NCBI GenBank assembly: GCA_032622095.1
Contig: CP136069.1
Span: 186,671,122-186,735,121, forward strand
Direction: 5' to 3'
Length of the DNA stretch: 64,000 nucleotides
Source of the DNA: Siphonodentalium dalli
Lineage: Eukaryota > Mollusca > Scaphopoda > Gadilida > Siphonodentaliidae
Part shown: one piece after another, positions 21,601 to 37,600 of the stretch
Layout of the letters: every line of letters begins with the position of its first letter
Numbering within the stretch: position 1 is the first letter of the stretch
Translations under genes and position numbers: made by a program
Notes under the pieces: model-generated
Seen by the model: the letters and a program-made list of their open reading frames with translations, nothing else
Databases searched by the model: none
What the model was told of the DNA's origin: nothing

Positions 21601-22045
21601 GGTTGTAATTCTCTTTGACTCGCTGTGACCACATCAGAGTCCACTCTGCGTCGAATTGTTTGCGGTTGAGCTCCAAACTGTTTCTCAGATGATCCCACAT
21701 GATGAATGCTTCGAACTTCTCCTTGCAGTGTGGGTTTAACAATATCAGCTTCGGGAACCATCTTTCCATAACATTGTATATGTCAAGTTTAATCAGTGCT
21801 AAGTCGATAAACTGGTTTGTCCAATCATCAGTTGTAGAGAACAAACACAGAACATGTTCACGTTGACTAGGATGTTCTATTTTACATCCTTCACAGTTTG
21901 CTGACACTTCCTTGCGAATAAGTTCTTGTAGTTCTTCAATCATAGCGTTGTTGAGTGTGTCCAAGATCAGGTTCCATCTCGGAGCAAAGTTTTGTGAACG
22001 TTGGTATTCTTCATAGTAGTTCCATAGCTGTGATATGAACTCCAT
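21587..22045 (-). CDS. Unnamed Polinton protein with Cys/His cluster
   Basis: A 152-residue intact frame starting 1 bp after the capsid gene stop and overlapping the protease start. Mid-protein it has a CEGCKIEHPSQREHVLC segment (about residues 50-66), a Cys/His arrangement that could bind zinc. The rest is predicted mostly helical and rich in Trp, Leu and Glu. A protein of this size with a similar Cys/His motif is often found between capsid and protease genes in Polintons, as far as I recall, but it has no established function. Position in the capsid cluster suggests a virion or assembly role (inference). Confidence 0.7.
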   Translation of the reverse strand: MEFISQLWNYYEEYQRSQNFAPRWNLILDTLNNAMIEELQELIRKEVSANCEGCKIEHPSQREHVLCLFSTTDDWTNQFIDLALIKLDIYNVMERWFPKLILLNPHCKEKFEAFIMWDHLRNSLELNRKQFDAEWTLMWSQRVKENYNHADS

Positions 22046-22046
22046 C

Positions 22047-23350
22047 CTAATAGTCAGTAAGCACTTCTCTCAAAGCTGTGATCTCTATTTCACTGTCAAA
22101 TTCAGCATACACCAAAACGTTGACGGCTGTAGTGAGAGCTGTCAAGAATTGAAGCTCCAAACGCAGGTTCCCTGTCTTTATAGGATGTAGATGCCCCTCG
22201 TCGCTTCCTTGGTCCGGTGTCAAGTCGAAACCCCACAAACAATAACCATTCATATATTCTTTTAAATTAATGCCAATTGATTTGTTAACACCAAACATTC
22301 CTAAAGATTGATACAAAGATAAATATGATCTGAGACATTGTTTTGTTGCGAAGTTTGGTTCAAATGGACGGTTATGTATTGTATGACCGTCTTGACTAAC
22401 TTCCAATTTATTCAAACTGAAATGTTTGAAGTGGAATGGATTGGTACCCAAATCTCCATTCATATCTTTATTTTCGACCAACGCAATAAAAATTCTCTTT
22501 GGTAATTGTCCTTGAAATAAGTGGTCTTCAATTTTTGATCTAAGTCCAGTACTAATTGTGAAAGTTTTTATTTCTACTCGTCTGATAGGTATTTTCATTT
22601 TTGACTGGACAATTTCTTGATTTAATTTATTTGAGACCGCTGGAAAGAGACTAACTGTTCTGACATGGAACACTGCTGATTCGAAAACAATTTGTCCATC
22701 CTCGCCGCCAATGAGGCAAAATTTTGATGGTGATCTGTTTAATCTGATACGAATTTCAATTCCATTTGGTAAATATTTTTCTTGAAGAAACAGATCAGTG
22801 TGTAAGCGTCCACATAGTTCAACAATTTTACTACCACCGATCAAACTTTCTCTAGAAGTTAATCCAGCATTAGTACCACCTTTGGTACTCTCTTCAAAAT
22901 GTTCTGCTGTATCGCCATACCACATTTCTAAATTTGCTAATTGATTATCTTTATATTCTGGAGAGTATCCCAACAGATTTTCGAAATATGCTCGGTATGG
23001 GTAAGTGTCAGAATTCGAAGTTATCAATTTGTTGTTCAAGTAAACATCGATACTGCTGAACATACTATGAAAGAAATTGTTAACAGGTGCTAATTCCGTA
23101 CCAGCATCCAAATTAGTTCCATCTTTTTTGTAATTTTGAATTTCACATAAAGATAAGATTGATTAATATCTGTCCACTTTTCGGTTTGAGATGGTATGAC
23201 AAACTCTATCGGAGCAGAATTATTCAGCGGTGCAATCGGATGATTTTCGATCCACTGCGATTCTGACATTGTAGCCACCGTTGGTGGAACATGTGTTATA
23301 TCAAGTTCCGATTTATTGCATTCGCATGATCCATTTACCATTTGTGCCAT
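22047..23350 (-). pseudogene. MCP: Major capsid protein (double jelly-roll), split by a frameshift
   Basis: The first frame (23,350 leftward, 86 residues) and the second (to 22,047, about 350 residues) are two parts of one Polinton major capsid protein. The continuity is seen at SYLYVKFKIT in the first part and APVNNFFHSMFSSIDVYLNN in the second, which are adjacent in this family. The break lies at an A run, positions 23,129-23,123 on the minus strand, where the heptamer A AAA AAG is in the correct phase for a -1 slip that would enter the second frame. So it is either a one-base loss (mutation or homopolymer error) or, less likely, a ribosomal frameshift site. Total length about 430 residues is normal. 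It follows the small basic protein gene by 2 bp. Confidence 0.88.
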
Positions 23351-23352
23351 GA

Positions 23353-23727
23353 TTAATCAAAAATATCAAGAGCTCGACTGCTAGGATGTTTTTTCGACTG
23401 ACTTTTTCGGCGTTTGACAGCTGAATGATTCATTTTTGAATTCGCTACTCTTTTTCTAGGTTTTTGTCTCGAGTTCAAAATTTGATTTTTAGCTTGTGTG
23501 CCAAAAGATTTTAAAGCTTTTTTACCTTCATACATCAACGCTTCTTTCGGACTTTTACCTTGATTAATAATTTCATCTGCAACACCAAAAGTGTGTTTTT
23601 TCGCAAGTTGTAAAGCTGTCCGACCAATCGGTTTTAGAAATGGTACAGCAGATCTCATAAGTGATTTGAAAATTGAACCAATACCGTTACCATATTGCCG
23701 TGGTACGCCTCTATACACGGGGAACAT
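23353..23727 (-). CDS. Small basic core/minor capsid-type protein
   Basis: A 124-residue intact protein. The N-terminal third has a glycine-containing amphipathic segment (YGNGIGSIFKSLMRSAVPFL). The C-terminal third is very basic (clusters PRKR, KRRK, SKK), as expected for a DNA- or capsid-interior-binding protein. Polintons commonly encode a short basic protein between penton and major capsid that has been compared with adenovirus core protein X; I rely on position and composition. It ends 2 bp before the major capsid start, and begins 6 bp after the true penton stop. Confidence 0.65.
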   Translation of the reverse strand: MFPVYRGVPRQYGNGIGSIFKSLMRSAVPFLKPIGRTALQLAKKHTFGVADEIINQGKSPKEALMYEGKKALKSFGTQAKNQILNSRQKPRKRVANSKMNHSAVKRRKSQSKKHPSSRALDIFD

Positions 23728-23732
23728 TGTTT

Positions 23733-24585
23733 TTAGAATTCCTCTCGTTTTCTGAAATGCAACTTCGCCAAAGACTTACCACCAATAAACTGAATTGATT
23801 TTCCTGTGTCGCCACTTATATTTACACCAATTTTGTCAAAGTATGACTTTGAAACTGGAACATAATGTACATTTAAAAATTTCATGTTTTACATGTAATC
23901 CGTCGATATCTCTTTTAATTCTGAAAGAAACAACTCGTAAAATTTGTACTTCAACATTTCCAACAATTGTGAAATCGGCAATATCAGAATAAACAAACAT
24001 TAGATTATGACCAACATTCATATCTACACCAAACGGAAATCTATTATTTGAATAAAAATCTTCAGAAGCGTTTTCAGTTTTGTAACCCAACTTGTGCAAA
24101 AGACATTGTGGTAATTCAATTCCTAGTTTTGTGTTACTTAAACTCTTGCGAATAATTTTCACACGTTTTGTAACTTTTGAGTACTTGATGTTAAATCCGT
24201 ATTCGTTTTGCATTGCTTCTCCAAGTGTTTCATCAATTACATCTTGCATTGTATCAAGTAAATCTGCCGCAGAGGTATACGAACCTTTTCGTATCTGTAT
24301 TTCAAGTGCATGAACGCCATCAGGTCTCGTAAATATCTTTTCTTCAAAACGATTTTTAAGAACAGACAGTATTATTGCATCAGTTGTAATCAAATTGAAT
24401 TTACACGAATCCCCTGTAACATTGTATGTTTCTGAAGGTGTTAGCAGTTCGACTAATGCAACTTCCCATTTTACTTTATCAATTTGAATTGGTTTTGGTA
24501 ATTGTACAGTAAAACAACATTGAGTATTGTTTGGATACATTACCATTGAACTGTCGCTCGGAATTGTAATGAAGAAAGAATTCAT
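23733..24585 (-). pseudogene. Minor capsid (penton-like) protein with C-terminal frameshift
   Basis: The open frame from 24,585 encodes 249 residues and ends at 23,836. Residues 1-55 (FFITIPSDSSMVMYPNN, then KWEVALVELLTPSETYNV) match the conserved start of Polinton minor capsid proteins, single jelly-roll penton counterparts. The conserved C-terminal segment of the family is found in another frame just downstream and stops at 23,733-23,735, so a +1 shift occurred near 23,870-23,885 within a T5/A3 homopolymer region. The last 17 residues of the open frame are thus spurious. The start codon overlaps the upstream membrane-protein stop (ATGA). Whether the shift is real decay or a homopolymer error cannot be decided here. 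Confidence 0.82.
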
Positions 24586-24845
24586 ACTTTCAAAATTTCT
24601 GCCGACTGATTTTTCAAATATTTCAAACGCGGTGTTGGTAAAATGTATCCCAAAGAACTACTGAGTAAAATTAACCAAAGTTCGTTATTTTCACTTTGTA
24701 AACTTAAATGAACAATTTCTGTAGCGATTATACCAACAATTATAATAATTTGTGTAAAATATGTTACTTGATTTTTTGCAATTTTTTCTCCACAGATTTG
24801 AAATTGTGATGGAGCATCCAGAACAACTGAACCATTTTGAGACAT
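24582..24845 (-). CDS. Small two-helix membrane protein of the capsid cluster
   Basis: Eighty-seven residues from the ATG at 24,845 (MSQNGSVVLDAPSQF). The upstream extension of this frame lies inside the integrase gene and is discarded. Two hydrophobic stretches are evident: TYFTQIIIIVGIIATEIVHL and ELWLILLSSSLGYILPTPRL. It lies 10 bp after integrase and its stop overlaps the penton start as ATGA. Short hydrophobic proteins at this position recur in Polintons; role unknown, perhaps membrane interaction of a virion (inference). Confidence 0.65.
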   Translation of the reverse strand: MSQNGSVVLDAPSQFQICGEKIAKNQVTYFTQIIIIVGIIATEIVHLSLQSENNELWLILLSSSLGYILPTPRLKYLKNQSAEILKV

Positions 24846-24855
24846 GTTAAAAGTT

Positions 24856-25950
24856 TTATACCAAATTTGTGGCAGGAATCCAACTGTCAAATTTTTTAGG
24901 ATAACCAGCCCAATGAACTTTAATTTCTCTAACTGATTTACCAGCAACTTTTCTTGAACGTTTACCAACAACTGATTCAATTTCGTAAACTTTATTATCT
25001 TTTATATGTTGAATTTCTTTACCATAAAATGATCCTGCGATGTTTTCACCATCTAAATCTACTAATTTGTAAGTTAATGGTGTACTTTTACAAACTCTAC
25101 TAATTTTGAAAATTTCTTTTGTCCAATTTGGAAGATATCCTTTATCAAAAGTTCTCTTTGTTTTATTTATTCTAACAAAATCTCTAACTTTCAAGATCTT
25201 ATCTTTTTTCGTTTTTAACTTTCCATAAAGATTTCTGGAAACTTCAATTTCATTTTCTCGAGTTACTAAAACTGGTGCCATCTTAATACTTCTATGAAAA
25301 CTTTTGTTGTAAGAATTCACAAAATCGTGCAAAACATCATTGTATTTCAAAGTTTGATTTTGTGTAAAATATTTCCACATCTTTGTTTTCAATGTCCGTT
25401 GAAAACGTTCAACTATACTTGCTTTTGTCTCTGGATTCTCTGTTGTGAAAAAATGAATTTTCTTAGATTTCAAAAATTGTAAAAATAATTTATTTTTGAA
25501 TTCTGAACCTTTGTCAGATTGAAATGAAACAGGTTTTCGTTTTGATGATTTGAGAATTTTCTGAAATGTTTTAACGAAAGTTTTACCAGTTTTGTCTTTA
25601 ATTTTTTCAACCCATGCAAATTTTGAGAAAACATCAATAACACAAAGTAAATATCTGTAATTGTCATTGTGCTTTTGCAAAGTTTGCAAATCTGCCAAAT
25701 CAGCTTGCCACTGAATATCAATTCCTGCAACAATAGTTTTACGTCTGCGAAATTTCCGAACAATTGGTTTGTGTAAAGTATATGTTTTTTGCCATTGTAA
25801 CCATTTTTTAACATCTGAAAGTTTAATTTTGTTATTTGTTTCATTCGCATTTAAAAAAAGTTGATTTGCTCCACTGAAACCACCAACTTCTTTTGGATTG
25901 TAGTAAATTTCAGTTAGAAGTTTGTCAAATTTTATGTAAGTGGGGACCAT
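24856..25950 (-). CDS. INT: Retroviral-type DDE integrase with C-terminal chromodomain
   Basis: An intact 364-residue protein. The rve catalytic core has Asp84 (WQADLADL), Asp146 (FQSDKGSEF) and Glu181 (ASIVERFQRTLK), with about 35 residues between the last two as in DD35E enzymes. Residues ~320-364 (YEIESVVGKRSRKV, then IKVHWAGYPKKFDSWIP) form a chromodomain, a targeting module found in many Polinton integrases and some LTR-element integrases. Function: joins the element ends to target DNA, giving the 6-bp duplication seen here. The start overlaps the upstream 240-residue gene by 19 bp. Confidence 0.96.
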   Translation of the reverse strand: MVPTYIKFDKLLTEIYYNPKEVGGFSGANQLFLNANETNNKIKLSDVKKWLQWQKTYTLHKPIVRKFRRRKTIVAGIDIQWQADLADLQTLQKHNDNYRYLLCVIDVFSKFAWVEKIKDKTGKTFVKTFQKILKSSKRKPVSFQSDKGSEFKNKLFLQFLKSKKIHFFTTENPETKASIVERFQRTLKTKMWKYFTQNQTLKYNDVLHDFVNSYNKSFHRSIKMAPVLVTRENEIEVSRNLYGKLKTKKDKILKVRDFVRINKTKRTFDKGYLPNWTKEIFKISRVCKSTPLTYKLVDLDGENIAGSFYGKEIQHIKDNKVYEIESVVGKRSRKVAGKSVREIKVHWAGYPKKFDSWIPATNLV

Positions 25951-26654
25951 CCTTTCAAAATAGATTTTCTGGTTTTAGGAAAACTTTGAGGTATGAAAAT
26001 ATCAACTGAACGTTTTCTTGACTTGCCACTGCTAGGAGTTGCATGAGGTGTATGAAACTCATCACCAGTGTGACCTTCTTTTAAATGTCTTTGTATCCAC
26101 AACCATCGATTCCTGTTACCTACATAATCTTGTGGTACATTAAGTTCCCCCAATCCACGTAGGAATGTTTCATAACCAACTGGGTCAAAACCTTTTCGGT
26201 GACGAACAACATCGTTTATCAAATCAATTATATTTGATCCAGTAACTGTTTCTGTTCCATAAATTAATTGTCCACGATCATCCCATCTAAGTTTAGGATT
26301 AGTTGACAACAATGTTAAAATTTGTTGTGCTTTACCACGAAGTTTAGATGGCACACTTTCCAATATATGTTCACTCATGTTCCCAAAGTTTTCAGATAAC
26401 TTTTGTTCAGGTAAACTGAATTTTGAATTTAAAGACTTTTGTGAAGTTTTCAATTTGTACAAATTTTCTCCATATAACTGTGACTTTTCTGATTCAGAAA
26501 TATTTTTATCATAAACTGATTTCAATTCTTTGTAAGAATCTGAAACATTTGAAATTGCAGGATCAGGAGGTAATTGAGGTTTATTCATTTCTGACATTTT
26601 CCATTGTTTGAAATCTTCCAACATTCTGAATGGTACAATAACCATTTTCTTCAT
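25932..26654 (-). CDS. Conserved Polinton protein of unknown function
   Basis: An intact 240-residue protein. The middle (about residues 100-180) contains KLRGKAQQILTLLSTNP, then LRWDDRGQLIYGTETVTGSN and GRNRW-like conserved positions around NVPQDYVGNRNRW; proteins with this layout occur repeatedly in Polintons and related elements beside integrase, without assigned function. The N-terminal 90 residues look coiled and charged, the C-terminus is basic (SGKSRKR) and proline/serine-rich. It overlaps integrase by 19 bp, which suggests translation from a shared or tightly packed transcript. Confidence 0.72.
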   Translation of the reverse strand: MKKMVIVPFRMLEDFKQWKMSEMNKPQLPPDPAISNVSDSYKELKSVYDKNISESEKSQLYGENLYKLKTSQKSLNSKFSLPEQKLSENFGNMSEHILESVPSKLRGKAQQILTLLSTNPKLRWDDRGQLIYGTETVTGSNIIDLINDVVRHRKGFDPVGYETFLRGLGELNVPQDYVGNRNRWLWIQRHLKEGHTGDEFHTPHATPSSGKSRKRSVDIFIPQSFPKTRKSILKGWSPLT

Positions 26655-26674
26655 ATTTATTTGAGATTTAGTTT

Positions 26675-27037
26675 TTACAAAATATTGTTAACAACTGCAC
26701 CTAATGTTTTGCTAATCAATGGAGCAAGAAATAATAATGGTAAAAAGCCACCTTTTTGATTCAAAATTTTCTTCTTTTGTTGCAAAGGTTTGTTCTTGTC
26801 TGCAAGATATCTGATATGTTTACGCTTCGAATGTAACTTGCGGTTCTGAGCTTCATTCAGTTTTACATTACCTTTTAAAAGATTTTGACAACATTCTGAA
26901 ATGCAATCCATCACTTGTTTCGGAGCATCGTTGATCATTTTCTTTTTATATGCAGATGGAACTTTACTCATTGCAACAATCAACTCACCATATTTTTTTA
27001 TCAGCGGTGCTTTCCTGCTCTTAGTTTTTGAAGGCAT
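26675..27037 (-). CDS. Basic protein with QKGG motif and hydrophobic tail
   Basis: One hundred twenty residues from the ATG at 27,037 (MPSKTKSRKA). Residues 40-90 are strongly basic with CISECCQNLLKGNV; residues 94-97 are QKGG, followed by a hydrophobic tail (FLPLLFLAPLISKTLGAVV). QKGG-F fits the consensus of adenovirus-type proteases, (M/I/L/N/Q)XGG-X, so the tail may be released during maturation, by analogy with adenovirus pVI (inference). Proteins with this arrangement are common in Polintons. Lies between the QRGG protein and the 240-residue gene. Confidence 0.68.
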   Translation of the reverse strand: MPSKTKSRKAPLIKKYGELIVAMSKVPSAYKKKMINDAPKQVMDCISECCQNLLKGNVKLNEAQNRKLHSKRKHIRYLADKNKPLQQKKKILNQKGGFLPLLFLAPLISKTLGAVVNNIL

Positions 27038-27093
27038 CTTCACAGTCTAAGTAGTTGTCTCAAAATGAGCAGAAAAATTATATGTTTCATCTT

Positions 27094-27681
27094 TTATCTT
27101 TTCTGATTGAACCATTCTAAAGCTTCGAATGCAGATTTCGATGCATCAGACAACGGCATAAATTTTGAAAATTCAAGATCAATAACTGGTATTTTTTGTA
27201 ACGGTTGATGTTGAGGGTTCTGCTGAGAAGGTATAGGTGTAAATTTAGAATGTTGATTTTGTTGAGTTTGCATCGGTGTAAACTTTGAATGATTTAGAGA
27301 AAGTTTTGTTTTACGTTTAGATTCTTTTTGACAACCCCTTTGTTGTGTTTGCATCAGTGTAATCTTTGAACGTTTTGGAGAAACCTTTGATTTACTTTTA
27401 GATTGTCTACCAGTTTGTTCAAATGAATTTTTCAAAAGACTTCTAATTAAAAGTCCTCCAAGGAACCCACTACCACCTCGTTGTAAAATTAATTTGCGTT
27501 TTGTTTCCATATCAGTTGATCGATCAGAGATTTTTTTAAGAACATTTTTATTTCTCTGAAAACACTTTTTTGTCTGTGATGGTAATTTCCAATCATTTTC
27601 AAGAAATAATTCAGCGGCAAAAGTGAAGAAATTTATAATTTGTGACAGTTCATCATGACTAAACATCTCGGTGGACGACAT
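27094..27681 (-). CDS. QRGG-containing protein with repeated SKFTP motif
   Basis: A protein of 195 residues from the ATG at 27,681 (MSSTEMFSHDELSQ); the longer frame upstream lies mostly in the spacer after ATPase and is not used. It has QRGG at residues 67-70 followed by a glycine-rich hydrophobic stretch (SGFLGGLLIRSLL), parallel to the QKGG protein next to it, and then four degenerate repeats of SK(F/I)(T/M)(P/L)-MQTQQ type in a basic, Gln-rich C-terminus. No named family. The paired protease-type motifs suggest a virion precursor (inference). Confidence 0.6.
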   Translation of the reverse strand: MSSTEMFSHDELSQIINFFTFAAELFLENDWKLPSQTKKCFQRNKNVLKKISDRSTDMETKRKLILQRGGSGFLGGLLIRSLLKNSFEQTGRQSKSKSKVSPKRSKITLMQTQQRGCQKESKRKTKLSLNHSKFTPMQTQQNQHSKFTPIPSQQNPQHQPLQKIPVIDLEFSKFMPLSDASKSAFEALEWFNQKR

Positions 27682-27715
27682 GGTTCTAAAATGAAAAAAG
27701 TAACAACAACTGAAT

Positions 27716-28366
27716 TTATACTTTTGAATAAATGACAGGACCTCGGTCATTAGCTGTCAACCATTTATGGAAAATATCAGTTCTAATTCGCAAATAATTT
27801 TCTGTTCTAGGATGAAAATCTACTAAAATATATCCATGATTTATTGAAGTTGCATCTTCGTATGCTTGTTTCAAATGATTGTTTTGCATTTGATGAGCCG
27901 AAACTTTTATTTGATTTTTATCTCGAACGCTTTGAAATAAAACCATGTAGTGAGCATTCAAACTTATAGTTCTGCTACTTTTTGATTTTTGGAACATGTT
28001 TTGAGTAATGTAAATTATTGAAGCATTTCGATGGTGACCTTTTCTAGTAAACCAAAGCATTATTTTGTCTTCATCGTGTTCCCCCATCATGTCATCGAAA
28101 ACAACAAGATGAGGAAATGATTTATCTGATACAATTTCCTCATCATCGTCTGGAATACCATCGATAAACTCAACGTTATCAATTTCTTTTATACGATTGT
28201 ATGTGTCTTGCCATTCTTTGTAACACCAAACTATTTTCTTTGGTGGTGTTTGGAATAAATCGTGTTTAAATTCAATAACTTTTTTAACAAATTCTGTTTT
28301 ACCTGATCCACTAGGTCCGCTGATAAAGAAATTACACGGATGTTGGAAAAGTAAAGATTCTTCCAT
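27716..28366 (-). CDS. ATP: FtsK/HerA-type genome-packaging ATPase
   Basis: An intact 216-residue protein with Walker A GPSGSGKT (residues 17-24), Walker B LVVFDD (87-92) and a downstream sensor-like Asn/Gln in IIYITQN. This is the A32-like packaging ATPase of Polintons and related double-jelly-roll viruses; it is expected to pump element DNA into capsids. Length matches the family. The gene begins 33 bp after the preceding unknown gene and ends 34 bp before the QRGG protein. No lesion seen. Confidence 0.95.
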   Translation of the reverse strand: MEESLLFQHPCNFFISGPSGSGKTEFVKKVIEFKHDLFQTPPKKIVWCYKEWQDTYNRIKEIDNVEFIDGIPDDDEEIVSDKSFPHLVVFDDMMGEHDEDKIMLWFTRKGHHRNASIIYITQNMFQKSKSSRTISLNAHYMVLFQSVRDKNQIKVSAHQMQNNHLKQAYEDATSINHGYILVDFHPRTENYLRIRTDIFHKWLTANDRGPVIYSKV

Positions 28367-28399
28367 GTTGTCACTTTGATGCCTAATCAGAGAGTGAAC

Positions 28400-28987
28400 T
28401 TAACGACGTGTGAATTTAGTTTTTAAAGAGAAATCTCCAAAGCTGTAAATATTTCCAAACATTTCAATAATCCAAGTATTATAGTCTTCTATTCTTCTGT
28501 TTGTTCTGTAAATATAAAAATCATTTCCTATAATGTTTTTAATTTTTGCATATGTTGACATTTTTTTTGTTAACAAATACCCATAGATCCTAGGAACTGA
28601 TTTAAAGGTTCCACTAGCAAAAGGATAATTATCTTCATACTTTGTATAATGAATATAATCATGTTCATCAAAAGTTTCTAAATCTAAATGGTGTTGATCA
28701 CCACCAAATAGCCAAAAATCAGATATTCTTTCAATGAGAAAAAATGTTTTGAATTTAATAAATGATTTAATATAGTTTTGAGAGAAATGAGAAAATATAC
28801 TTGTCTCGAGATAGTCCAATCTCTGTAAACATTCGTCGACATCACAGCATCGTAGTATTGCTTTCTTTTCTCTTTCAAACCAGACTTCTTGTAATTACTT
28901 CTTTATCTCTGGAATAAGTGTTGACTGTGCCACCAAATATCCATAAATCTTCTCAGCAATTTCTGGAGGTACTACTCCTGTCAACAT
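28400..28987 (-). pseudogene. Unknown protein (~195 codons) with one in-frame stop
   Basis: Reading from ATG at 28,987, just after the end of the polymerase frame, a single frame runs to 28,400 with one internal TAA at 28,895-28,897 (codon 31). Downstream of the stop the frame continues with EVWFEREKKAI and a long Tyr/Phe-rich region (DYIHYTKYEDNYPFASGTF, then NDFYIYRTNRRIEDYNTW). The phrase IYGYL occurs twice, before and after the stop (KIYGYLVAQ and RIYGYLLTK), perhaps an internal duplication. I do not recognise the family. The intact frame on both sides argues for a recent nonsense mutation or readthrough. Confidence 0.6.
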
Positions 28988-29003
28988 CTTGACATGAAAT
29001 GAC

Positions 29004-32000
29004 TCAACATCTCCATCCGTATGGATATGTGTGAATACCATTGACGAGTTTTCGTTTTGTGTACACCGATCTGAAAGTTTTGGTTTGACACTCACTAATC
29101 AGTTGATGGTTCTTTTGTCTTAATTCTGGAAGGATACTCAACAACAGTTTTGAAATTTTCACGATCATTAACACATTGTACCATTGTTTCAAAATTAACT
29201 TTTTGACTTGCGCTGTAATCAAGAGTGATACCTTTTACCTTACATTTGGTGTATCTTCTCCCATCTTTGATCTATTCATATCCGTAGTTCTTTGGCCCAA
29301 GTCCAACAAATTTGACAATCTTTGCATCTGGATGTTCGTCGCTCCATTTCCCCAATCTTCCTTCGATAGTTTTGATGTTCTTCTTTGATGGATCACTGAC
29401 ATACATACAGCTGTCTGTATCAAAATACAGCACTCTATCTCCAAGTTATTTTAAAACTTTATACAATTGTAATCTTGCATACGCTGTAACAAAAGAAGCA
29501 ACAACAACATTTGCTGAATGATGAGGTTCAATATTATCTAAAATATCAACATAATTTACCAGAATGAATTTGTCACCATCAAGAAGTGTAACATTTTGAA
29601 CAATTATATTGTTACTAGTAAGCAATTCAAAATAACGTGATGGCTTATCCACATACTCTGTTTTTGACATAAGATTTCTTTGTGCATTCTTACCCCATAT
29701 ACAATTAATCATAATTTTAGATATTTGGCGTTTTCCTGGATTCTTCTCGATGTTCTCCAATTTTATACCCTCAGCTGCATAATAATCCTGTACAAACTTT
29801 TGCTTCTGTTCTTCTGTCTCAACACCATATGGATAACCACTACATTCCTGTTTGATCTTTAGATGTTTGTCGATATAGGATTTGTATATTTCATCTGTCC
29901 AATCTGTCCAATGCCAAATTTGGTACACATCAAGTATTTTTTAGCCAACATCCATTGCTTTGAATAATTCTGGCGTGGTCCACACTCCGGTTATAGCTCG
30001 ATCTTCTTCTGAATGGTTACATGTCTCGTCCTCATTGACGGCACAAGTGTTGAACAAAGTAAAAACCATTTTCTTGTTACAATGAATCGGTAGAACTGGA
30101 ATATACAATTTCGATGGTGGTAAAATTGTACATTTAACAAGGCCCGCATAGTCTCTAATGTGTTCTTGATCGATCTGCTCTTGGCTCAAAATTTCTGGAT
30201 GTCCAACAGGGTAGAATTTATATTTGTTGCAATATGGATACAACGAACACACATCGATGAACTTGATTTCTTTTGTGGAATCTTGATCAATTTCCTCGTA
30301 CAATTTGATGGCATTTGTACGTCCACCAAACAATGCTTCTCTTGGCAAAATGGGGTCTCGATGTTTGTAGAAAGATTCCATTTGTTGTTTGAATTTCACA
30401 TCCGATTTCATTCTTTCGTCGATCTGATGCTCCCAAATTGATTCAACTCTGTAACCAAGACTTTCCAGTTCATCTTTCTTCTGTTGAGTTCTTGTATATA
30501 ATTCTTCCATGGTGAGCATCGTATAGGGATTCTTGTATTGTCTGTTGTTGTAACATTTTGGACATCCATGAAACAGACATCCATTCATCTCAAAAACTGT
30601 TCTTGTGGCTTCCTCATATCCATCGACGTAGTGTCCACCAATCTTGATTTCTCCTACATTCAAAGCATGCTTGATTGTTATCATACGAGACAATGATAGA
30701 TGTTGAAGCCAACGTATCGCTTTCATGGAATAGTTTTTAGCACATTGGTATCCACCATCTGGAATGATTCCGATTGTTTTCTCTGGCATTGAATTCTTCC
30801 TCCATGCCAAATTGCAAACTTGCACCAATGTTATTGACTCAATGAACGGGTCAATCTGTTCTGTTTCCAATATGTATTTCCTGAAATTTCCACATCCACA
30901 GCGAAGAATATCCACGTCTGATTTGCAGTACTTCTCCATCTCTTCTTGGAAGTTGAATATCACGTAATTTTCTATTTTCTCATTGTACCATTCAAAGAAT
31001 TTCTCTCGATTTTCCACGCTCATCATGTCTGGTTTGTAGTAATCAGAAGACAAGTAAGGTCCAATGTAATTTTGAAACTTTGGTGAATTCGCCCAATGTG
31101 GAAAGTGTCCTTTCGCCATCTCATTCAGCTGAAAAGTTTGTGGAAACTTTGAAAGCGGCATCATCAGAAAACTCAGAGAATCAATAACTTTCACGCTGTT
31201 GCATTTTAAACTGAGAATTTTGTTTCCATTCATGATCAGTTCTGGTTTATGAATTCCACTTTGTATGAGTGCTTGAATTAGAAACTGTGCATCGTATCCC
31301 TGAGCATTGTGTGCTATTGCAACACATCCTTTGTGATCTTGGTGGAATAACCAGTTTGTGAAGTCTGTTAAAACGTTGTCACCCTTGAATACAAATTCTC
31401 TGGAATCCGGTCCGCATGTTTCACATTTTTCTTCGATTGGTTTGCACATGCAATATCCACAAGCGGTATGTGCAACACAGAAGTTTGGAATATGAACACC
31501 TGTGTCTTGTCTGCATTAAAAGTCAAAGAATACATATGGAATCTTTACAGGTTTCTTTTCCGGTGATTCATATTTTGGAATGTAGCACCTGTGATCTGCT
31601 TCAACGATTTCTTTGCAATGTTTGCATTTCTTCAACCCCGCACATATATGTCTGTTTGATTTATTGATGAGAATTTCTTCATCACAATTGTTGCATAGTT
31701 GAACCAAATCACATATTTTTCTTTTCTGTTTTCCTTCCGTCTTCAAATGGTTGTCGAAACAAGATTTACTTCTGAATGATCGTCGACACGTTCTACACTT
31801 CACCAAATGTGTGAAATTACACTGTGTCAATGACCAGCATGCACAAACAAAACTGCATCGATGATCGCCACGACTTTTGAATCCAATGTCACAGAATTCA
31901 CAGTAGTAGTTGGTGCCTAGAAATCCTTTGATTGATGTTATGGTGTCGAAGTGATTGTTGTTGTAGTAGATGTGTACACATTTGCTCCCCGAACACATTT

Positions 32001-33075
32001 CTGCAGGTTCAAATAGAAATCCAGCGCCAGCAAATTCATTGTGAATTTTCACAACATATTCTGGATACAATATTTCTTGAATCTTGTGGAACTCATTGAT
32101 ACTGCAAACTGTATCGTGTGAAATGCCAGCACGGTTGAGTAGATTTTTTGCTGCATCTGTTTGTGCTGTGTATATTGATTGCCTTATTCTTTTCCATTTC
32201 TTTGACCAGCACGCAGATCCATCACTATCTGCCTTACACATTCCGACGACAATAGATCTTGCCATACACATAACATCATCAGCATTTTCAATCCGGACAA
32301 TACTTCTTTTTACTTTTGTCAGCTTGTTCTTGTCTGCAAATGGTCCATAATGTAGTGAGTGTCGTGTACCACCTTCCGGAATATCTGTAACGAAGATTTC
32401 GAAATTGAGTGCACCGTCATGAATTGTAAAGTCTGCATTTGATTGAACCACATTTTGAATATTATCCATGAGTGCCCCACCATTCAATTCACTGGCTTTT
32501 GTGAATGGAATGAAAATGCTCATATCAAGTCCTGGATGATTTATCGTAACTCTGATTCTTGTCTTCTCATTTGCTGAACATTTCTGTTTCAATTCTTCTG
32601 TCAAATTCTCAAATATCTCTGTAATGTTCTCGATTGGATCTGTAAATTTCTCGAATTTCACACCAAATTGTCGTGATGCTGATTTAAATTTTCTGGAAAA
32701 TTTCACCGAGTTCAGCTCCAAATTGAAATATTTTGTTGGATTGAACACAACACGCTCTCTAGCCAGACTTCTCTTTCTCTTCCCACCAATTTCTCTATTC
32801 TGTCTTCGACCGCGTCCAATCTGTCCATCACTAGAACTTTCTTCACTTTCTCCCCCATCAGTTTCCATATCGCTCTCTTCACTTTCTGCCTCATCAGTTT
32901 CCATATCGCTCTCTTCACTTTCTGCCTCATCAGTTTCCATATCGCTCTCTTCACTTTCTGCCTCATCAGTTTCCATATCGCTCTCTTCAATAACTGCAGG
33001 CCTTGGTCTTTTTCTAACAATATCTTCTTCGCTGGTGGCGTCGACTGAAACAGGTCTTTTAATTCTCTTAAACAT
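29004..33075 (-). pseudogene. POLB: Protein-primed DNA polymerase B with four in-frame stops
   Basis: Start ATG at 33,075 (MFKRIKRPVS). Codons ~34-82 are four 12-residue acidic repeats; then a family-typical N-terminal region and Cys/His clusters (YYCEFCDIGFKSRGDHRC, about 410-510). Exonuclease motif I is FFDF followed by TAA at 31,516-31,518 (codon 520) where the catalytic Glu belongs. Exo II is AHNAQGYDAQF (588), Exo III YCKSDVDIL (716). Palm motif A is DVCSLYP (941), B KIMINCIWGK (1120), C YFDTDS (1217). More stops: TAA 29,941-29,943, TAA 29,446-29,448, TAG 29,272-29,274, all in one frame. Near 29,105-29,125 a frameshift moves the conserved end (TKRKLVNG, TYPYG) into another frame ending at 29,004. 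The gene would replicate the element with a protein primer; as assembled it is inactive. Confidence 0.93.
32843..32988. repeat. 36-bp coding tandem repeat in polymerase N-terminus
   Basis: About four copies of a 36-bp unit encode the acidic 12-mer SDMETDEAESEE. The last copy changes to METDGGESEE. It starts exactly where similarity with the inverted duplicate of the polymerase 5' end stops, so the expansion postdates or is unique to the polymerase copy. Confidence 0.9.
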
Positions 33076-33384
33076 TTTTGTCTTGAGTTTTGTCAGCACA
33101 AAATATTGCGACTGGCTTCTTCGGAGTTGAAGTGTAAAGTGTAGAATTACACCTGCTTTTATAGCTTTTATAGCATTCGCGATGAAAATGCTATAAAAGC
33201 AGGTGTAATTATACACTTTACACTTCAACTCCGAAGAAGCCAGTCGCAATATTTTTTGCTGACAAAACTCAAGACAAAAATGTTTAAGAGAATTAAAAGA
33301 CCTGTTTCAGACGACGCCACCAGCGAAGAAGATATTGTTAGAAAAAGACCAAGGCCTGCAGTTATTGAAGAGAGCTATATTGAG
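32971..33384. repeat. Inverted duplication of the polymerase 5' end and promoter
   Basis: Arms of about 195 bp (32,971-33,168 and about 33,188-33,384) are inverted copies with few differences; the centre is near 33,178. Each arm contains a promoter, a 5' leader and the first ~32 codons of an open frame starting MFKRIKRPVS. The result is a head-to-head promoter feeding the polymerase to the left and the zinc-knuckle gene to the right. Confidence 0.95.
33156..33199. promoter_or_regulatory. Bidirectional TATA-box promoter
   Basis: TATAAAAG on the plus strand at 33,192-33,199 and on the minus strand at 33,163-33,156, with another minus copy at 33,172-33,165. They lie about 80-95 bp from the respective ATG codons. 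Symmetry follows from the inverted duplication and would coordinate polymerase and zinc-knuckle expression. Confidence 0.7.
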
Positions 33385-33879
33385 CTACATAAAAAAGATT
33401 CAAAAAAATCTACACAACCACAGACTAGAAAAATTCAAGATAATCTTGTCGAATTGAGACAGATCTCTACCAATTTGTTTAAACTTTGTAACAAAATGCA
33501 ATGGCAAGAGAAACAAGAGAAAAACAAAGCTGATACAAATTGGAAACCGCCATATGGTTACTGTTACAAATGCGGACAAGAATCCCATTGGTCCTTCCAT
33601 TGTAAAACAGATTTCGGCGACAAAAAAAATGTGAAAACTATACATAAGTCTACAAGTAGTAACAATACAAGAACAAATGCAGATATCAAAACTGAAGAGA
33701 TGCCTACAACATCAGATTTTTCCAAACAAGACCGACCTGTTGATCCTACGAATGATTCACGGAACAAATCTGAAGATAAACATCCAGAAATTAAAAATTC
33801 CAAGAAAACTTCCAAGAAAAAGAAGCTGAGACCATTCTACATTCCAAAAACAGATAAACGAATCGACACAAACAATTGA
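33280..33879 (+). CDS. CCHC zinc-knuckle protein sharing the polymerase N-terminus
   Basis: An intact protein of 199 residues. Residues 1-32 are almost identical to the polymerase start (one substitution, V11 to D), a consequence of the inverted duplication. Residues 95-108 (CYKCGQESHWSFHC) are a C-x2-C-x4-H-x4-C zinc knuckle, a nucleic-acid-binding fold typical of retroviral Gag. The C-terminal 90 residues are Lys/Ser/Thr-rich and end in KKKKLRPFYIPKTDKR. A conventional AATAAA follows at 33,895-33,900. The shared N-terminal peptide (KRIKRP, RKRPRP) resembles a nuclear-localisation segment. Expected role: nucleic-acid binding, perhaps with replication (inference). Not a standard Polinton gene that I recognise. 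Confidence 0.8.
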   Translation: MFKRIKRPVSDDATSEEDIVRKRPRPAVIEESYIELHKKDSKKSTQPQTRKIQDNLVELRQISTNLFKLCNKMQWQEKQEKNKADTNWKPPYGYCYKCGQESHWSFHCKTDFGDKKNVKTIHKSTSSNNTRTNADIKTEEMPTTSDFSKQDRPVDPTNDSRNKSEDKHPEIKNSKKTSKKKKLRPFYIPKTDKRIDTNN

Positions 33880-33893
33880 AAATTATGTTGTGT

Positions 33894-33988
33894 GAATAAA
33901 TTATGAATTGAACAATCGTGTTTTGTTTTTTCAGCTATGAAAGAGTAACCTTTTGGGAAATGTGGGTGGCCCTGAAAAGGGCCGTTTT
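33894..33988. repeat. 95-bp direct repeat, copy 1 (poly(A) signal plus stem-loop)
   Basis: Matches 34,989-35,084 with one extra T there. It spans the AATAAA of the plus-strand gene side, a TTTTTTCAG tract and the minus-strand histone-like hairpin. It marks the left edge of both accessory cassettes. Confidence 0.92.
33968..33983 (-). terminator. Histone-type 3' stem-loop of the 131-residue gene
   Basis: On the minus strand GGCCCTTTTCAGGGCC preceded by AAAAC and followed by ACCCACA. This has the 6-bp stem, TTTC loop and A-rich/ACCCA flanks of replication-dependent histone mRNA ends. It lies 19 nt after the stop of the gene at 34,003-34,398. Confidence 0.8.
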
Positions 33989-34002
33989 CTCTTTTCCAGG
34001 AT

Positions 34003-34398
34003 TCATATGAATTCTGACAAATCAGGATATATCCCGTTGGGATTAATTGTCACAGACCAAGTAGGATTTGATCTGTGCGCCGCACCAGCCTGGGCAAAGC
34101 TGTCAATCGCTGCATTGCACAGATCTTTCTTCTTGATCTGTGACAAGATCTCCACGAGATCAAGATTGCTTGATTCTTGATCACATACTTTAAGTAATGG
34201 TCGCCGGCGAGCCAAAAAATCTCTTAGCATCTGCTTCTGAACCATCTTTTGTTCAGGAGAATCCTGCCATTTCCTATATCTTTTTATTTCCGTCTCCTCT
34301 GACGAATCTCTCTTCCTCCACATCTTCTTGAGAAATTTCTTGATCATTGCATTTGATAACTTTACTTGGTCATCGTTTATGAACGAAGATGAATTCAT
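34003..34398 (-). CDS. Accessory gene b: unknown basic protein
   Basis: A 131-residue intact frame. Residues 15-45 are basic and helical (MIKKFLKKMWRKRD, then EIKRYRKWQDS); the remainder includes QKMVQKQMLRDFLARRRP and ends ITINPNG-like, DLSEFI. No family recognised. It reads leftward from a 215-bp intergenic region shared with the 58-residue gene at 34,613. Its first ~21 codons are duplicated at 35,933-35,995 as a remnant. It ends in a histone-type stem-loop, not in AATAAA, so its mRNA may lack a poly(A) tail (inference). Confidence 0.6.
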   Translation of the reverse strand: MNSSSFINDDQVKLSNAMIKKFLKKMWRKRDSSEETEIKRYRKWQDSPEQKMVQKQMLRDFLARRRPLLKVCDQESSNLDLVEILSQIKKKDLCNAAIDSFAQAGAAHRSNPTWSVTINPNGIYPDLSEFI

Positions 34399-34620
34399 AT
34401 GTTAAAACATCTTAATTAATTGTATATACTATCATGAATTTAATCTATAACATATCGAAATGGTGAAACTAACAGATAATGCACTGAAAAGAAACACAAT
34501 GTCAGGAAACATTTGTCATTTTTAACGTCAAAGTATTATGTGATTTCATTGTCGCCCGCGCAATCGTGATATATGTTCAAGACGGATCTTCAGACTTATT
34601 CTACATTCAAAGATGACTGC
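34336..34620. repeat. 285-bp direct repeat, copy 1 (accessory divergent promoter)
   Basis: Nearly identical to 35,933-36,217 (offset 1,597). It covers the first codons of gene b, the intergenic promoter region, and the leader and first codons (ATGACTGC) of the gene to the right. Confidence 0.95.
34501..34560 (+). promoter_or_regulatory. Shared 60-bp accessory upstream element, copy 1
   Basis: Contains GTCAGGAAAC, AACGTCAAAG, TATTATGTGATTTCATTG and TCGCCCGCG. Lies 53 bp upstream of the ATG at 34,613. Two further copies, one inverted, precede the genes at 36,210 and 35,584. Confidence 0.7.
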
Positions 34621-34789
34621 AATACCCGAACCCTTGATGGCGATACTGAGAGGAACTAGGGGGATAACACCGCAGATAATGTGGGACAGGCACGCAAGAG
34701 AAGTGACCGCCCGTTCAAAGCTGATCGTGCAAAAAAGAACAGCGGGGGAACAAAAGCAAAATTCGCACTCTGAGAAAAATGGGGAGTGA
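34613..34789 (+). CDS. Accessory gene c: 58-residue protein, possibly a truncated gene
   Basis: Starts at the same duplicated ATG context as the gene at 36,210 (first three codons the same), then diverges completely: MTAIPEPLMAILRG, ending KNGE. The composition is basic and polar; no domain is visible. It is followed 20 nt later by one imperfect and one perfect histone-type stem-loop. It may be a real small gene or the shortened remnant of a longer one between a duplicated promoter and 3' end. Confidence 0.45.
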   Translation: MTAIPEPLMAILRGTRGITPQIMWDRHAREVTARSKLIVQKRTAGEQKQNSHSEKNGE

Positions 34790-34809
34790 ATTTTGATGGC
34801 GTACAAAAC

Positions 34810-34825
34810 GGGCCTTTTCAGGGCC
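34810..34825 (+). terminator. Histone-type stem-loop, imperfect (gene c, first)
   Basis: GGGCCTTTTCAGGGCC: same loop and size as the others but with a G/G mismatch at the third stem pair. It precedes a perfect hairpin by 11 nt, so it may be a degenerate duplicate. Confidence 0.55.
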
Positions 34826-34836
34826 AAAACAAAAAC

Positions 34837-34852
34837 GGTCCTTTTCAGGACC
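34837..34852 (+). terminator. Histone-type stem-loop with compensatory pair (gene c, second)
   Basis: GGTCCTTTTCAGGACC. Compared with the other copies the third stem pair is T-A, not C-G, with both sides changed, so pairing is kept. Flanks are AAAAAC and AACCAA. About 11 nt downstream is CAAAAAGAAAAAC, a purine-rich stretch comparable to a histone downstream element. Confidence 0.7.
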
Positions 34853-34988
34853 AACCAATTTTTTCAAAAAGAAAAACTTTTAGCATTGCTTAAGAACTAA
34901 TAATGTTCCTTGTACCCTATGTTTCGTTTTGAAAAAATCACGCCACGAATAATTTAAAAACAAAATATACTTGCAAATATTTGTTGTT

Positions 34989-35084
34989 GAATAAATTATG
35001 AATTGAACAATCGTGTTTTGTTTTTTTCAGCTATGAAAGAGTAACCTTTTGGGAAATGTGTGTGGCCCTGAAAAGGGCCGTTTT
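34989..35084. repeat. 96-bp direct repeat, copy 2
   Basis: Second copy of 33,894-33,988. Here no plus-strand gene precedes it, so its AATAAA is orphaned; the minus-strand hairpin serves the gene at 35,102-35,584. Confidence 0.92.
35064..35079 (-). terminator. Histone-type 3' stem-loop of the 160-residue gene
   Basis: On the minus strand GGCCCTTTTCAGGGCC preceded by AAAAC and followed by ACACACA, 22 nt after the stop codon of the gene at 35,102. Confidence 0.8.
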
Positions 35085-35101
35085 AAAATTATCATCTGAC
35101 T

Positions 35102-35584
35102 TTAACACCGTTTTGTGTTTTTCTTATATCTTGACATATCTTTCCCATGAGAACCGAGAGCTTTTGCAAATTCATCACTTTTCTCTGTATCTCTAGATTC
35201 TTTACAAGGAAGATGAAATCTGACTTTTGTCTCAGTAGAAGCCTTCATGATACTCTTAGTTTGTTTTTCTTTCGTCGCCGATAATTTTCCTTTTTTGATC
35301 TGTTTCTGCTCTTTCGATCTCTCAACATCATGAACCCTGATTGGGATATCTATCTGTTCTGCAACGAAACGAATATTCACTTTCACTTCTTGATGCGTTA
35401 CTTGCGTTTTCACGTCAATATCCCTGCGAAGGCATCTCAGTTCATCTAAAATCGCTTTTAAAATGAGTGTATCACCACCTATAGTCGTATTAGCTTGGAC
35501 TGATGACTGTGGCGCAGCATATGTATTCTGTGCAACAGGACTACTGTATATCTCACTCTGAAGAAATTCTGTTAACGGAACCAT
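35102..35584 (-). CDS. Accessory gene d: unknown protein with helical centre and basic tail
   Basis: One hundred sixty residues from ATG at 35,584 (MVPLTEFLQSEIYSS). Residues ~35-65 (LILKAILDELRCLRRDIDV) look like a short coiled coil; after residue 90 the protein is strongly basic (SKEQKQIKKGKLSATKEKQ) and ends KKNTKRC. No family recognised. An inverted copy of the shared 60-bp upstream element sits about 60 bp before its ATG, and a histone-type hairpin follows its stop. By position it is the counterpart of gene b in the second cassette, though the sequences differ. Confidence 0.6.
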   Translation of the reverse strand: MVPLTEFLQSEIYSSPVAQNTYAAPQSSVQANTTIGGDTLILKAILDELRCLRRDIDVKTQVTHQEVKVNIRFVAEQIDIPIRVHDVERSKEQKQIKKGKLSATKEKQTKSIMKASTETKVRFHLPCKESRDTEKSDEFAKALGSHGKDMSRYKKNTKRC

Positions 35585-35643
35585 CTCTTGATAGCAATGC
35601 AATGTAAGGTTGATCAAATTCGAAAATATTTGTATACATTTGA

Positions 35644-35703
35644 CACGGGCGACAATGAAATCACATAATACTTTGGCGTTACAATTGACAAATATTTCCT
35701 GAC
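35644..35703 (-). promoter_or_regulatory. Shared 60-bp accessory upstream element, inverted copy
   Basis: Reverse complement of the elements at 34,501 and 36,098 with a few substitutions (GTCAGGAAATATTTGTCA; AACGCCAAAG; TCGCCCGTG). It is oriented toward gene d. Confidence 0.7.
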
Positions 35704-35932
35704 GTTGTGTTTTTTCAGAACTGGATCACCATGCATATTTTTCTTGATCATTATTGCATAGCGATCAAACAAATGTTTTTAATTTCGTTAGATCATTATC
35801 TATTATTTGGTACACATGATTGATATATTTATTACCTCGTTAGACAAATATGGAATGTTTTTCTAGTTTTTGGTTTTGGAATTGTACATATTTTATACAT
35901 AAAAACTGAACACAAGAAACATACCGAACATT
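35704..35932. other. Non-coding spacer in cassette 2
   Basis: AT-rich spacer between the inverted upstream element and the second promoter repeat; no gene seen. Confidence 0.4.
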
Positions 35933-36217
35933 TTTCTTGATCATTGCATTTGATAACTTTACTTGGTCATCGTTTATGAACGAAGATGAATTCATATGTT
36001 AAAACATCTTAATTAATTGTATATACTATCATGAATTTAATCTATAACATATCGAAATGGTGAAACTAACAGATAATGCACTGAAAAGAAACACAACGTC
36101 AGGAAACATTTGTCATTTTTAGCGTCAAAGTATTATGTGATTTCATTGTCGCCCGCGCAATCGTGATATATGTTCAAGACGGATCTTCAGACTTATTCTA
36201 CATTCAAAGATGACTGC
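35933..36217. repeat. 285-bp direct repeat, copy 2, with remnant of gene b start
   Basis: Copy of 34,336-34,620. The minus-strand part still encodes the first ~20 codons of gene b from ATG at 35,995, then departs from it. The plus-strand part supplies the leader and start of the OTU-like gene. Confidence 0.95.
36098..36157 (+). promoter_or_regulatory. Shared 60-bp accessory upstream element, copy 3
   Basis: Same element as at 34,501 with one or two substitutions, 53 bp before the ATG at 36,210. Confidence 0.7.
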
Positions 36218-36674
36218 TGTAAACATAACAGATCTTGACGAGATAATGGGCGGTGGGGTATACTGTAAAGCAGTGTACGGTGAAGAAATATCGCTATTTT
36301 TGAGGGCACTCAGCCTTGGGATTTACGGGACGACCGATGGATGGATGATTCTTAGAGATGCGGCAGTTGACCTGTACTACACAGAGAGTGACGAACTTGG
36401 TGCGTCGGCACAAGATTTACGGCGCACAACACTTTTGGCCGAATCAAGATTGATGGTTGAATTAGCGGCGACTGTTATACAGCGACCTATCGTCATGTTT
36501 GATGCTACCAAAGGCGGCTACAAATCAACACCAAGATTCAAGTCATCAATACCTCTAGTGTGGATCCCCCACGTTTGCCATGAGCATTATTGTGATTGCG
36601 AAATATGGATGAGGAGAGGAGCCAAATCAATTGAAGTTTTGGCGAACAAAGAAGTTCATTGTGGCGGATTCTAA
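36210..36674 (+). CDS. Accessory gene e: OTU-like protein lacking the catalytic cysteine
   Basis: An intact 154-residue protein. Residues ~24-57 (EEISLFLRALSLGIYGTTDG, then MILRDAAVDLY) follow the pattern of the OTU cysteine-protease core, and residues 82-97 (MVELAATVIQRPIVMF) match the following helix and strand. A His cluster (121, 124, 126) lies near the expected C-terminal His. Where OTU enzymes have D-G-x-C before the F-R-A-L helix, this protein has E-I-S, so the nucleophile is absent or replaced by Ser28. It could be a ubiquitin-binding pseudoenzyme or decoy (inference). The gene ends 19 nt before a histone-type hairpin, next to the right TIR. Confidence 0.55.
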   Translation: MTAVNITDLDEIMGGGVYCKAVYGEEISLFLRALSLGIYGTTDGWMILRDAAVDLYYTESDELGASAQDLRRTTLLAESRLMVELAATVIQRPIVMFDATKGGYKSTPRFKSSIPLVWIPHVCHEHYCDCEIWMRRGAKSIEVLANKEVHCGGF

Positions 36675-36693
36675 ACTATAACAAAAATAAAAC

Positions 36694-36709
36694 GGCCCTT
36701 TTCAGGGCC
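36694..36709 (+). terminator. Histone-type 3' stem-loop of the OTU-like gene
   Basis: GGCCCTTTTCAGGGCC with AAAAC before and ACCAAA after; 14 nt further is GAAAAGA, close to the purine core of the histone downstream element that pairs with U7 snRNA. An AATAAA also sits just upstream (36,685-36,690). Confidence 0.82.
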
Positions 36710-36784
36710 ACCAAATGATCGAAAAGATACTCTTGATAGCTAATTGATATTTTCCAAAGTGGGATTTTCCTTTTGAAAAAAATA

Positions 36785-37124
36785 TTTCTAAGTCCATTTT
36801 CATTTTTTCGATCACAAATGTCACATCAATGACAGGAACATCTATTCTCAGGGGGTAACTATGGCCCAGTACCCCCCAGTGGGGCCACTATGGCCCAGTA
36901 CCCCCCAGTGGGGGCCACTATGGCCCAGTACCCCCCAGTGGGGGCCACTATGGCCCAGTATCGAATACTGGACCATCTATGGTCCTAGATGGTCCAGTAT
37001 TCGATACTGGGCCATAGTGGCCCCCACTGGGGGGTACTGGGCCATAGTGGCCCCCACTGGGGGGTACTGGGCCATAGTGGCCCCCACTGGGGGGTACTGG
37101 GCCATAGTGGCCCCCATTACTACT
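36785..37124. repeat. Polinton right terminal inverted repeat
   Basis: Inverted match to 20,438-20,765. Four 30-bp units face inward of the central palindrome (around 36,955-37,010) and four outward. The terminal sequence is CCCCCATTACTACT. Confidence 0.93.
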
Positions 37125-37600
37125 CATGTATGTGTGGACTACTCGTACACCGGACTACGATAACTTTTAACTATTTTGGGTGTACTACTCATCACATGGA
37201 CTACGATAACCTTTAACTACATTTGTTTGTAACTACTCGTGCAATGGACAACGATAAACTATAACTATATTTATGGGGAACTACTCGTACAACGGAAAAT
37301 GGCAACCTGTAACTACATTTGCGTGGAACTACTCGCGCCGGGGATAACATTAACCTTTAACTACATGTATGTGTGGACTACTCGTACACCGGACTGCGAT
37401 AACTTTTAACTATTTTGTGTTGTACTACTCATCCAATGGACTACTCGTATGTGTGTACTACTCGTCCATAGGACTACGATAAATGTTAACTATTTTGTGT
37501 GTACTACTCATCCAATGGACTACGAAAACCTCTAACTACATGTGTGTAAGTATACTCGTCCAGCAGAAGACGATAACATGTATATGCCTAATACTGTTAT
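37125..37600. repeat. 47-48-bp minisatellite, right flank of the Polinton
   Basis: About nine degenerate units with ACTACTCGTxCAATGGACTA cores. It begins with the target duplication CATGTA. The unit near 37,345-37,400 reads continuously through the sequence that the Polinton split, giving an empty-site paralogue. Confidence 0.88.

Follow-up and report, generated by a model that had tools for sequence, protein, structure and literature searches.

Histone-type mRNA ends are generally regarded as almost exclusive to the replication-dependent histone genes. In animals, formation of these ends involves the protein SLBP, which acts on a hairpin, and the U7 small nuclear ribonucleoprotein (snRNP), which acts on an element further downstream; the histone mRNA is cleaved without receiving a poly(A) tail and is abundant in S phase, as described in parts of PMC5706932 and PMC1924863. 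The subject of this work is a Polinton, a virus-like mobile DNA element, located in a 64,000-nucleotide (nt) stretch of the genome of the scaphopod mollusc Siphonodentalium dalli (contig CP136069.1, positions 186,671,122 to 186,735,121; hereafter “the window”), where it is the single full-length Polinton (20438-37124) and carries, near its right end, a cassette of four small open reading frames (ORFs), the accessory genes A, C, D and E. Small accessory genes termed “oncoid” are a feature of adintoviruses, where they are defined by motifs and are similar to Rb-interacting proteins (parts of PMC11071296 and PMC10812802). A literature search, with most subscription journals outside its coverage, listed no account of such stem-loops in a Polinton. 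The observations presented here, all of which come from one host genome, suggest that A, C, D and E end in 3' ends of the replication-dependent histone type, and that their mRNAs could be processed by SLBP and U7, free of poly(A) and coupled to S phase; we assign this reading a probability of roughly 0.7.

Five hairpins accompany the four genes (Table 1). All of them are located 19-47 nt past a stop codon and are sense to the preceding ORF, and four display a 6-base-pair (bp) stem, a 4-nt loop, an A-rich 5' flank and an ACCA-type 3' flank, while the first hairpin of C carries one mismatch and an AAAAC 3' flank. Matches to the pattern GGNNCTTTTCAGNNCCA number exactly five in the window, against an expectation of 0.00 from 100 dinucleotide shuffles. 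In a cmscan run with all 4227 Rfam families, four of these hairpins exceed the gathering score of RF00032, the histone 3' stem-loop family (37.1-40.8 bits, cut-off 34, E 1e-8 to 3e-7). A permissive scan with this family (E up to 1, 15000-45000) finds no sites beyond the ends of the accessory genes, the core genes being devoid of any. In RNA folding, the three single-hairpin segments form the 6-bp stem at -11.4 kcal/mol, and the C segment forms its second hairpin as expected and its first with a shifted stem. The hairpins of A and D do not count as separate cases, since the 3' regions of the two genes are duplicates of a single segment. The first-pass annotation of the window, made from the letters alone, had described these five hairpins as histone-like, with the positions, strands, mismatch, gene orientation and stop-to-hairpin distances of Table 1, and as absent from the core genes, all of which is borne out by the scans. 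It had also taken the two-sided change in the second hairpin of C (GGTCCT/AGGACC) as a sign of selection on RNA structure; the change is genuine, but is limited to one pair.

Comparison with the histone genes of the host indicates that the likeness reaches beyond the hairpin, to the position of the U7 site and to a second downstream motif. In all four element ends (A, D, E and the second hairpin of C), AAAAGG or AAAAGA is present at +12 to +14 and AT[AT]GCT at +26 to +32; the first hairpin of C is followed by the second hairpin in place of these motifs. Among seven host sequences (H4, H2A and H2B, from two arrays), ATTGCT is found at +30 to +34 in all seven and AAAAGA or AAAGAG at +13 to +15 in six, and the combination of AAAAG/AAAGAG at +11 to +15 with AT[AT]GCT at +26 to +34 is also found in H4, H2A and H2B of one array. 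The region downstream of C aligns to host H2B with a score of 56 (null 27 +/- 4; 0 of 500 shuffles as good). The first-pass annotation had suggested possible U7-pairing elements after the hairpins that end at 36709 and 34852; an AAAAG-type motif stands at the host-histone position in 4/4 ends, and its pairing with U7 is predicted. In a genome-wide search, the best 75 RF00032 sites, of at least 75, include 12 in copies of this Polinton, checked by BLAST, and 63 in two blocks (C5:111.42-111.74M and C8:156.30-156.93M) whose annotated stretches hold H4, H2A and H2B genes and whose remaining parts are assigned as histone by position. Ten matches in histone arrays (three loci) score 40.8-42.4 bits, and element matches above the cut-off 34.8-44.2 bits. 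H3 was not found in the host histone stretches read, the host H2A has a molluscan look, and one hairpin, in host locus L021, has no ORF within 200 nt. Notably, an ATTGCT recurs in the host histone loci L019, L020 and L021 at 30-34 nt past the hairpin, further out than the usual U7 site, and is possibly a lineage-specific processing element.

The element exists in many copies, and a genome search with the 338-aa part of the capsid protein returned at least 119 scored places, that of the window included, all belonging to one near-identical family. Twenty copies were sampled on their accessory side, approximately every other of the top 39 capsid rows, and are therefore close relatives of the window copy. 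The first-pass annotation had proposed S-phase expression of the accessory genes through host SLBP/U7 processing, and would have seen this refuted by related copies that lack the hairpin or carry it elsewhere. The copies support its proposal instead: 17 of these 20, which were not selected for the hairpin, have retained it at matching gene ends. Each of the 17 reaches the accessory cassette and has 2-6 RF00032 matches (63 in total), and the fetched stretches of the other three (L037, L047, L049) contain no match to RF00032 or to A, C, D or E. Among the 17, C and D are missing in L032 and A in L034, and E is cut off by the end of the stretch in L033; where the preceding ORF is found, the hairpin is sense to it. 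Anchoring on the stop codon and the 3' untranslated region (UTR), a procedure that takes in only ends with a recognizable UTR and places the second hairpin of C outside the count, shows 63 of 66 gene ends to be fully paired (6/6) with a TTTC loop (A 15/16, first hairpin of C 15/17, D 17/17, E 16/16), the imperfect ones being C in L034 and both A and C in L048. The second hairpin of C is damaged in L046 and L013. Ten further loci, a biased sample found via the hairpin itself, provide 29 RF00032 matches and 32 perfect ends out of 35 anchored. Three of the genes also evolve under purifying selection among the copies, with ratios of non-synonymous to synonymous substitution (dN/dS) of 0.32 for A (bootstrap 0.17-0.64; 34003-34353 only, 25 rows), 0.39 for D (0.23-0.75; 25 rows) and 0.44 for E (0.24-0.78; 26 rows), the window being included in each case. 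The bounds are rough, since the copies compared are related to one another and the hairpin had served to locate 10 of the 30 loci put forward. Outside this genome, the pattern GGYCCTTTTCAGGRCCA occurs in six IMG/VR contigs, whose available stretches have no RF00032 match, two longer patterns gave no matches in IMG/VR, and queries with the polymerase and the ATPase found no relatives there.

What the sequence itself shows comprises the hairpins with their flanks, distances and strand, their presence in many copies, a downstream architecture in common with host histones, and purifying selection acting on three genes (A, D and E). On the model of histone genes, host SLBP would bind the hairpins of the A, C, D and E mRNAs, host U7 snRNP would base-pair with the AAAAG-type motif located at +12 to +14, and cleavage between the two would fall to the histone cleavage complex, generating accessory mRNAs that lack a poly(A) tail and that would be made, and be stable, mainly during DNA replication, while the core genes would use other 3' ends. 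The 3' ends of the element would have been taken from host histone genes, or have converged on them.

Several points weigh against this reading. The joint occurrence of both downstream motifs in dinucleotide shuffles (20,000 each) is rare, at 0.005% for A and for D, 0.085% for C and 0.015% for E, and speaks for the reading, but the motifs were defined after the sequences had been seen, and A and D count as copies of one segment. The AAAAG-type motif is missing from one of the seven host sequences, the H4 on C8. When aligned to histones, the downstream regions of A and E give a moderate match (9 and 11 of 500 shuffles do as well, respectively) and that of D a weak one (43 of 500); without the first 6 nt, the matches of all three lose significance (124, 114 and 60 of 500 for A, D and E). 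Stops in the window's frame are present in 0 of 25 rows for A, 1 of 25 for D and 4 of 26 for E. Hairpin windows are among the top 14-18% of all windows for intactness across copies, but do not stand out clearly from the remaining non-coding 3' windows, of which a share of 0.10-0.44 does as well (a divergence filter having removed row L033 in the case of D and row L015 in that of E); recency accounts for part of this conservation, and in such young copies conservation alone is therefore weak evidence. Finally, AATAAA is present at 36686, starting 8 nt before the hairpin of E, and at 34990, 138 nt after the second hairpin of C, which suggests that these two ends may not be exclusively of the histone type. 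Histone genes of C. elegans carry a hairpin and a poly(A) signal together (part of PMC1924863), and the hairpin alone is therefore no proof of a poly(A)-free end.

The poly(A) signals near C and E, together with the precedent of C. elegans, favour the alternative that the ends work in a dual mode, by hairpin processing in cycling cells and by polyadenylation at the nearby AATAAA otherwise; for A and D, however, the first AATAAA/ATTAAA on the coding strand is located ~940 and ~660 nt past the stop, respectively, none being present within 600 nt, and a dual mode for the cassette is unlikely, if the best surviving of the alternatives. The ends could also be passengers, captured from histone-array DNA and copied with the cassette, now functionless, with transcripts that end by polyadenylation. 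Such an origin would suit the common segment behind A and D and the unexceptional conservation of the hairpin windows, but not the fact that the hairpin stands at one fixed place, in the sense orientation, behind each of four unrelated ORFs, nor that the same architecture is kept in three different 3' regions, nor that 63 of 66 anchored ends are intact; the recurrence of this architecture at different gene ends is a stronger point than conservation, and we regard passengers as improbable. Transcripts of giant viruses and virophages carry 3' hairpins, and the presence of a hairpin behind each accessory gene could evoke generic palindromic terminators, DNA hairpins, or an insulation of the convergent C and D genes. 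Giant-virus palindromes, however, are not known to have such a shared sequence, while the element displays an SLBP-type sequence with its TTTC loop, A-rich 5' and ACCA-type 3' flanks and a motif at the position of the histone downstream element, and its core genes have no RF00032 site; generic hairpins are thus very improbable. The idea that the element's RNAs act as decoys that titrate SLBP or U7 and change the host histone supply could draw on the high copy number (at least 119 scored places) and on the five hairpins of the window copy, but is scarcely credible, since the hairpins go with coding genes on which purifying selection acts, and a decoy would have no use for such a link.

Within the cassette, which we continue to read as ending in histone-type 3' ends, A/C and D/E are divergent pairs with common upstream sequence, and C and D are convergent. 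A 70-bp stretch whose arms are 91% complementary is common, in both orientations, to the two divergent intergenic regions (34489-34558, 35646-35715, 36086-36155), and is a candidate two-way promoter core. Histone-like promoters were considered and rejected, as the upstream regions of host histone genes and of element genes, compared by eye without a statistical test, reveal no evident common motif. In L030 the C-D pair is present twice, with hairpins accompanying each, an expansion of the cassette by duplication. Protein D contains LPCKE, which conforms to LXCXE, a motif of the Rb-binding type; no other LXCXE of the element lies in an open frame longer than 60 codons, the remaining three being in frames of 21-58, and LXCXE is present in all 25 of the D-type matches counted over 30 loci, where a locus with two D genes may count twice. 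Immediately ahead of HLPCKE is SIMK-x5-KVRF (35198-35254, minus strand), which resembles the PP1-docking motifs SILK and RVxF, D being a possible phosphatase-plus-Rb adaptor. The LXCXE of D makes an S-phase theme plausible. A broader proposal, which is tentative and in our view rather doubtful, would have the entire early/accessory region of a mobile DNA virus of animals governed by the programme of histone mRNAs: the LXCXE protein D would drive cells toward S phase, and every accessory mRNA, that of D included, could be finished only in S phase by SLBP and U7, thus creating a positive loop that ties expression to DNA replication and yields non-polyadenylated viral mRNAs. Protein E was considered as an OTU-type protease on the basis of a motif likeness, and this candidate was rejected, with no Pfam family and no OTU chain in the PDB found (E up to 10 in both cases); its single-sequence structure model is uninformative (mean predicted local distance difference test score of 34.8).

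The rest of the element conforms to the Polinton/Maverick type, with terminal inverted repeats (TIRs), a 6-bp target-site duplication (TSD), a protein-primed DNA polymerase B (PolB), an integrase and an adenovirus-type protease. Its minus strand carries the core genes, namely the protease, the capsid region, the integrase with chromodomain, the putative ATPase and PolB; the region that we take to be the capsid is assigned from its position, a Pfam scan of the capsid ORF having given no family match. In the window copy, the capsid and polymerase regions are broken into several ORFs and the accessory ORFs are open; most other scored capsid places in the genome show a longer open frame. An inverted repeat of 97% identity (32972-33169 / 33186-33383) renders the polymerase ORF (minus) and the zinc-knuckle ORF (plus) near-identical over their initial ~30 residues, as though a 5' gene end had been duplicated in reverse orientation next to the original. 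Arrays of 29-bp and 88-bp repeats adjoin the element, extending over at least 15014 to ~19000.

Table 1. Features of the Polinton and its accessory cassette in the window (offsets in nt downstream of the hairpin)
Feature	Position	Strand	Remarks
Stem-loop of A	33968-33983	-	19 nt past stop; RF00032 40.8 bits, match 33944-33988
First stem-loop of C	34810-34825	+	20 nt past stop; one non-pair (GGGCCT/AGGGCC)
Second stem-loop of C	34837-34852	+	47 nt past stop; GGTCCT/AGGACC; RF00032 37.1 bits, match 34832-34878
Stem-loop of D	35064-35079	-	22 nt past stop; RF00032 40.1 bits, match 35040-35084
Stem-loop of E	36694-36709	+	19 nt past stop; RF00032 37.8 bits, match 36689-36734
U7-site-like motif, gene A	33949-33954	-	AAAAGG, offset 13
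Second downstream motif, gene A	33933-33938	-	ATAGCT, offset 29
U7-site-like motif, gene C	34867-34872	+	AAAAGA, offset 14
Second downstream motif, gene C	34885-34890	+	ATTGCT, offset 32
U7-site-like motif, gene D	35045-35050	-	AAAAGG, offset 13
Second downstream motif, gene D	35029-35034	-	ATAGCT, offset 29
U7-site-like motif, gene E	36722-36727	+	AAAAGA, offset 12
Second downstream motif, gene E	36736-36741	+	ATAGCT, offset 26
Accessory gene A	34003-34398	-	ORF, 131 aa
Accessory gene C	34613-34789	+	ORF, 58 aa; frame and length differ among copies
Accessory gene D	35102-35584	-	ORF, 160 aa; LPCKE (LXCXE) at 35212-35198
Accessory gene E	36210-36674	+	ORF, 154 aa
Left TSD	20432-20437		CATGTA, 6 bp; read directly, identical to right copy
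Right TSD	37125-37130		CATGTA, 6 bp
Left TIR	20438-20760		inverted-repeat arms; inner end approximate
Right TIR	36779-37124		inverted-repeat arms; inner end approximate
Adenovirus-type protease, core gene	21127-21600	-	Peptidase_C5 E 4e-4, 20.6 bits; cut-off 21.3, i.e. 0.7 bit short
Capsid-type region (presumed)	22047-23350	-	two ORFs in window copy (338 aa, 86 aa)
Integrase with chromodomain, core gene	24856-25950	-	rve E 3e-12; Chromo E 2e-5, 25.0 bits, cut-off 25.1
Packaging ATPase-type, core gene	27716-28366	-	Walker A GPSGSGKT; PHROG ATPase matches weak, E 1e-3
PolB region, fragmented in window copy	29941-33075	-	DNA_pol_B_2 E 2e-29 within 29941-31449
Zinc-knuckle ORF	33280-33879	+	AATAAA 16 nt past stop; strand without RF00032 site

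If the accessory genes do end as proposed, they would provide a natural test of what suffices for a histone-type 3' end outside histone genes, and the element would possess a direct route by which to couple itself, as a selfish entity, to S phase. Their RNAs would moreover belong to a non-polyadenylated class that escapes poly(A)-selected transcriptomes, and Polinton gene expression could thus have been overlooked. Among known systems, the oncoid genes of adintoviruses resemble gene D in being small accessory genes with a short linear motif, LPCKE in the case of D, and differ in that histone-type mRNA ends go unmentioned in the parts of the descriptions considered (PMC11071296, PMC10812802). 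With the 3' ends of metazoan replication-dependent histone mRNAs, those of the element share the GGCCCT/AGGGCC stem, the TTTC loop, the ACCA-type flank and a purine element at +12 to +14, and with metazoan histone genes, the arrangement of small single-ORF genes in divergent pairs and RF00032 scores near those of the host arrays. The element's genes, in contrast, are non-histone and reside inside a mobile, virus-like DNA element, one of them has two hairpins, and the distance from stop to hairpin is 19-22 nt (first hairpins, window copy) as opposed to 29-35 nt in the host histones read. With Polinton/Maverick elements of the adintovirus-like kind, the element shares TIRs, the 6-bp TSD, PolB, a retroviral-type integrase with chromodomain, the adenovirus-type protease, a putative packaging ATPase and a high copy number, and it is set apart from them by an accessory cassette with what appear to be histone-type mRNA ends.

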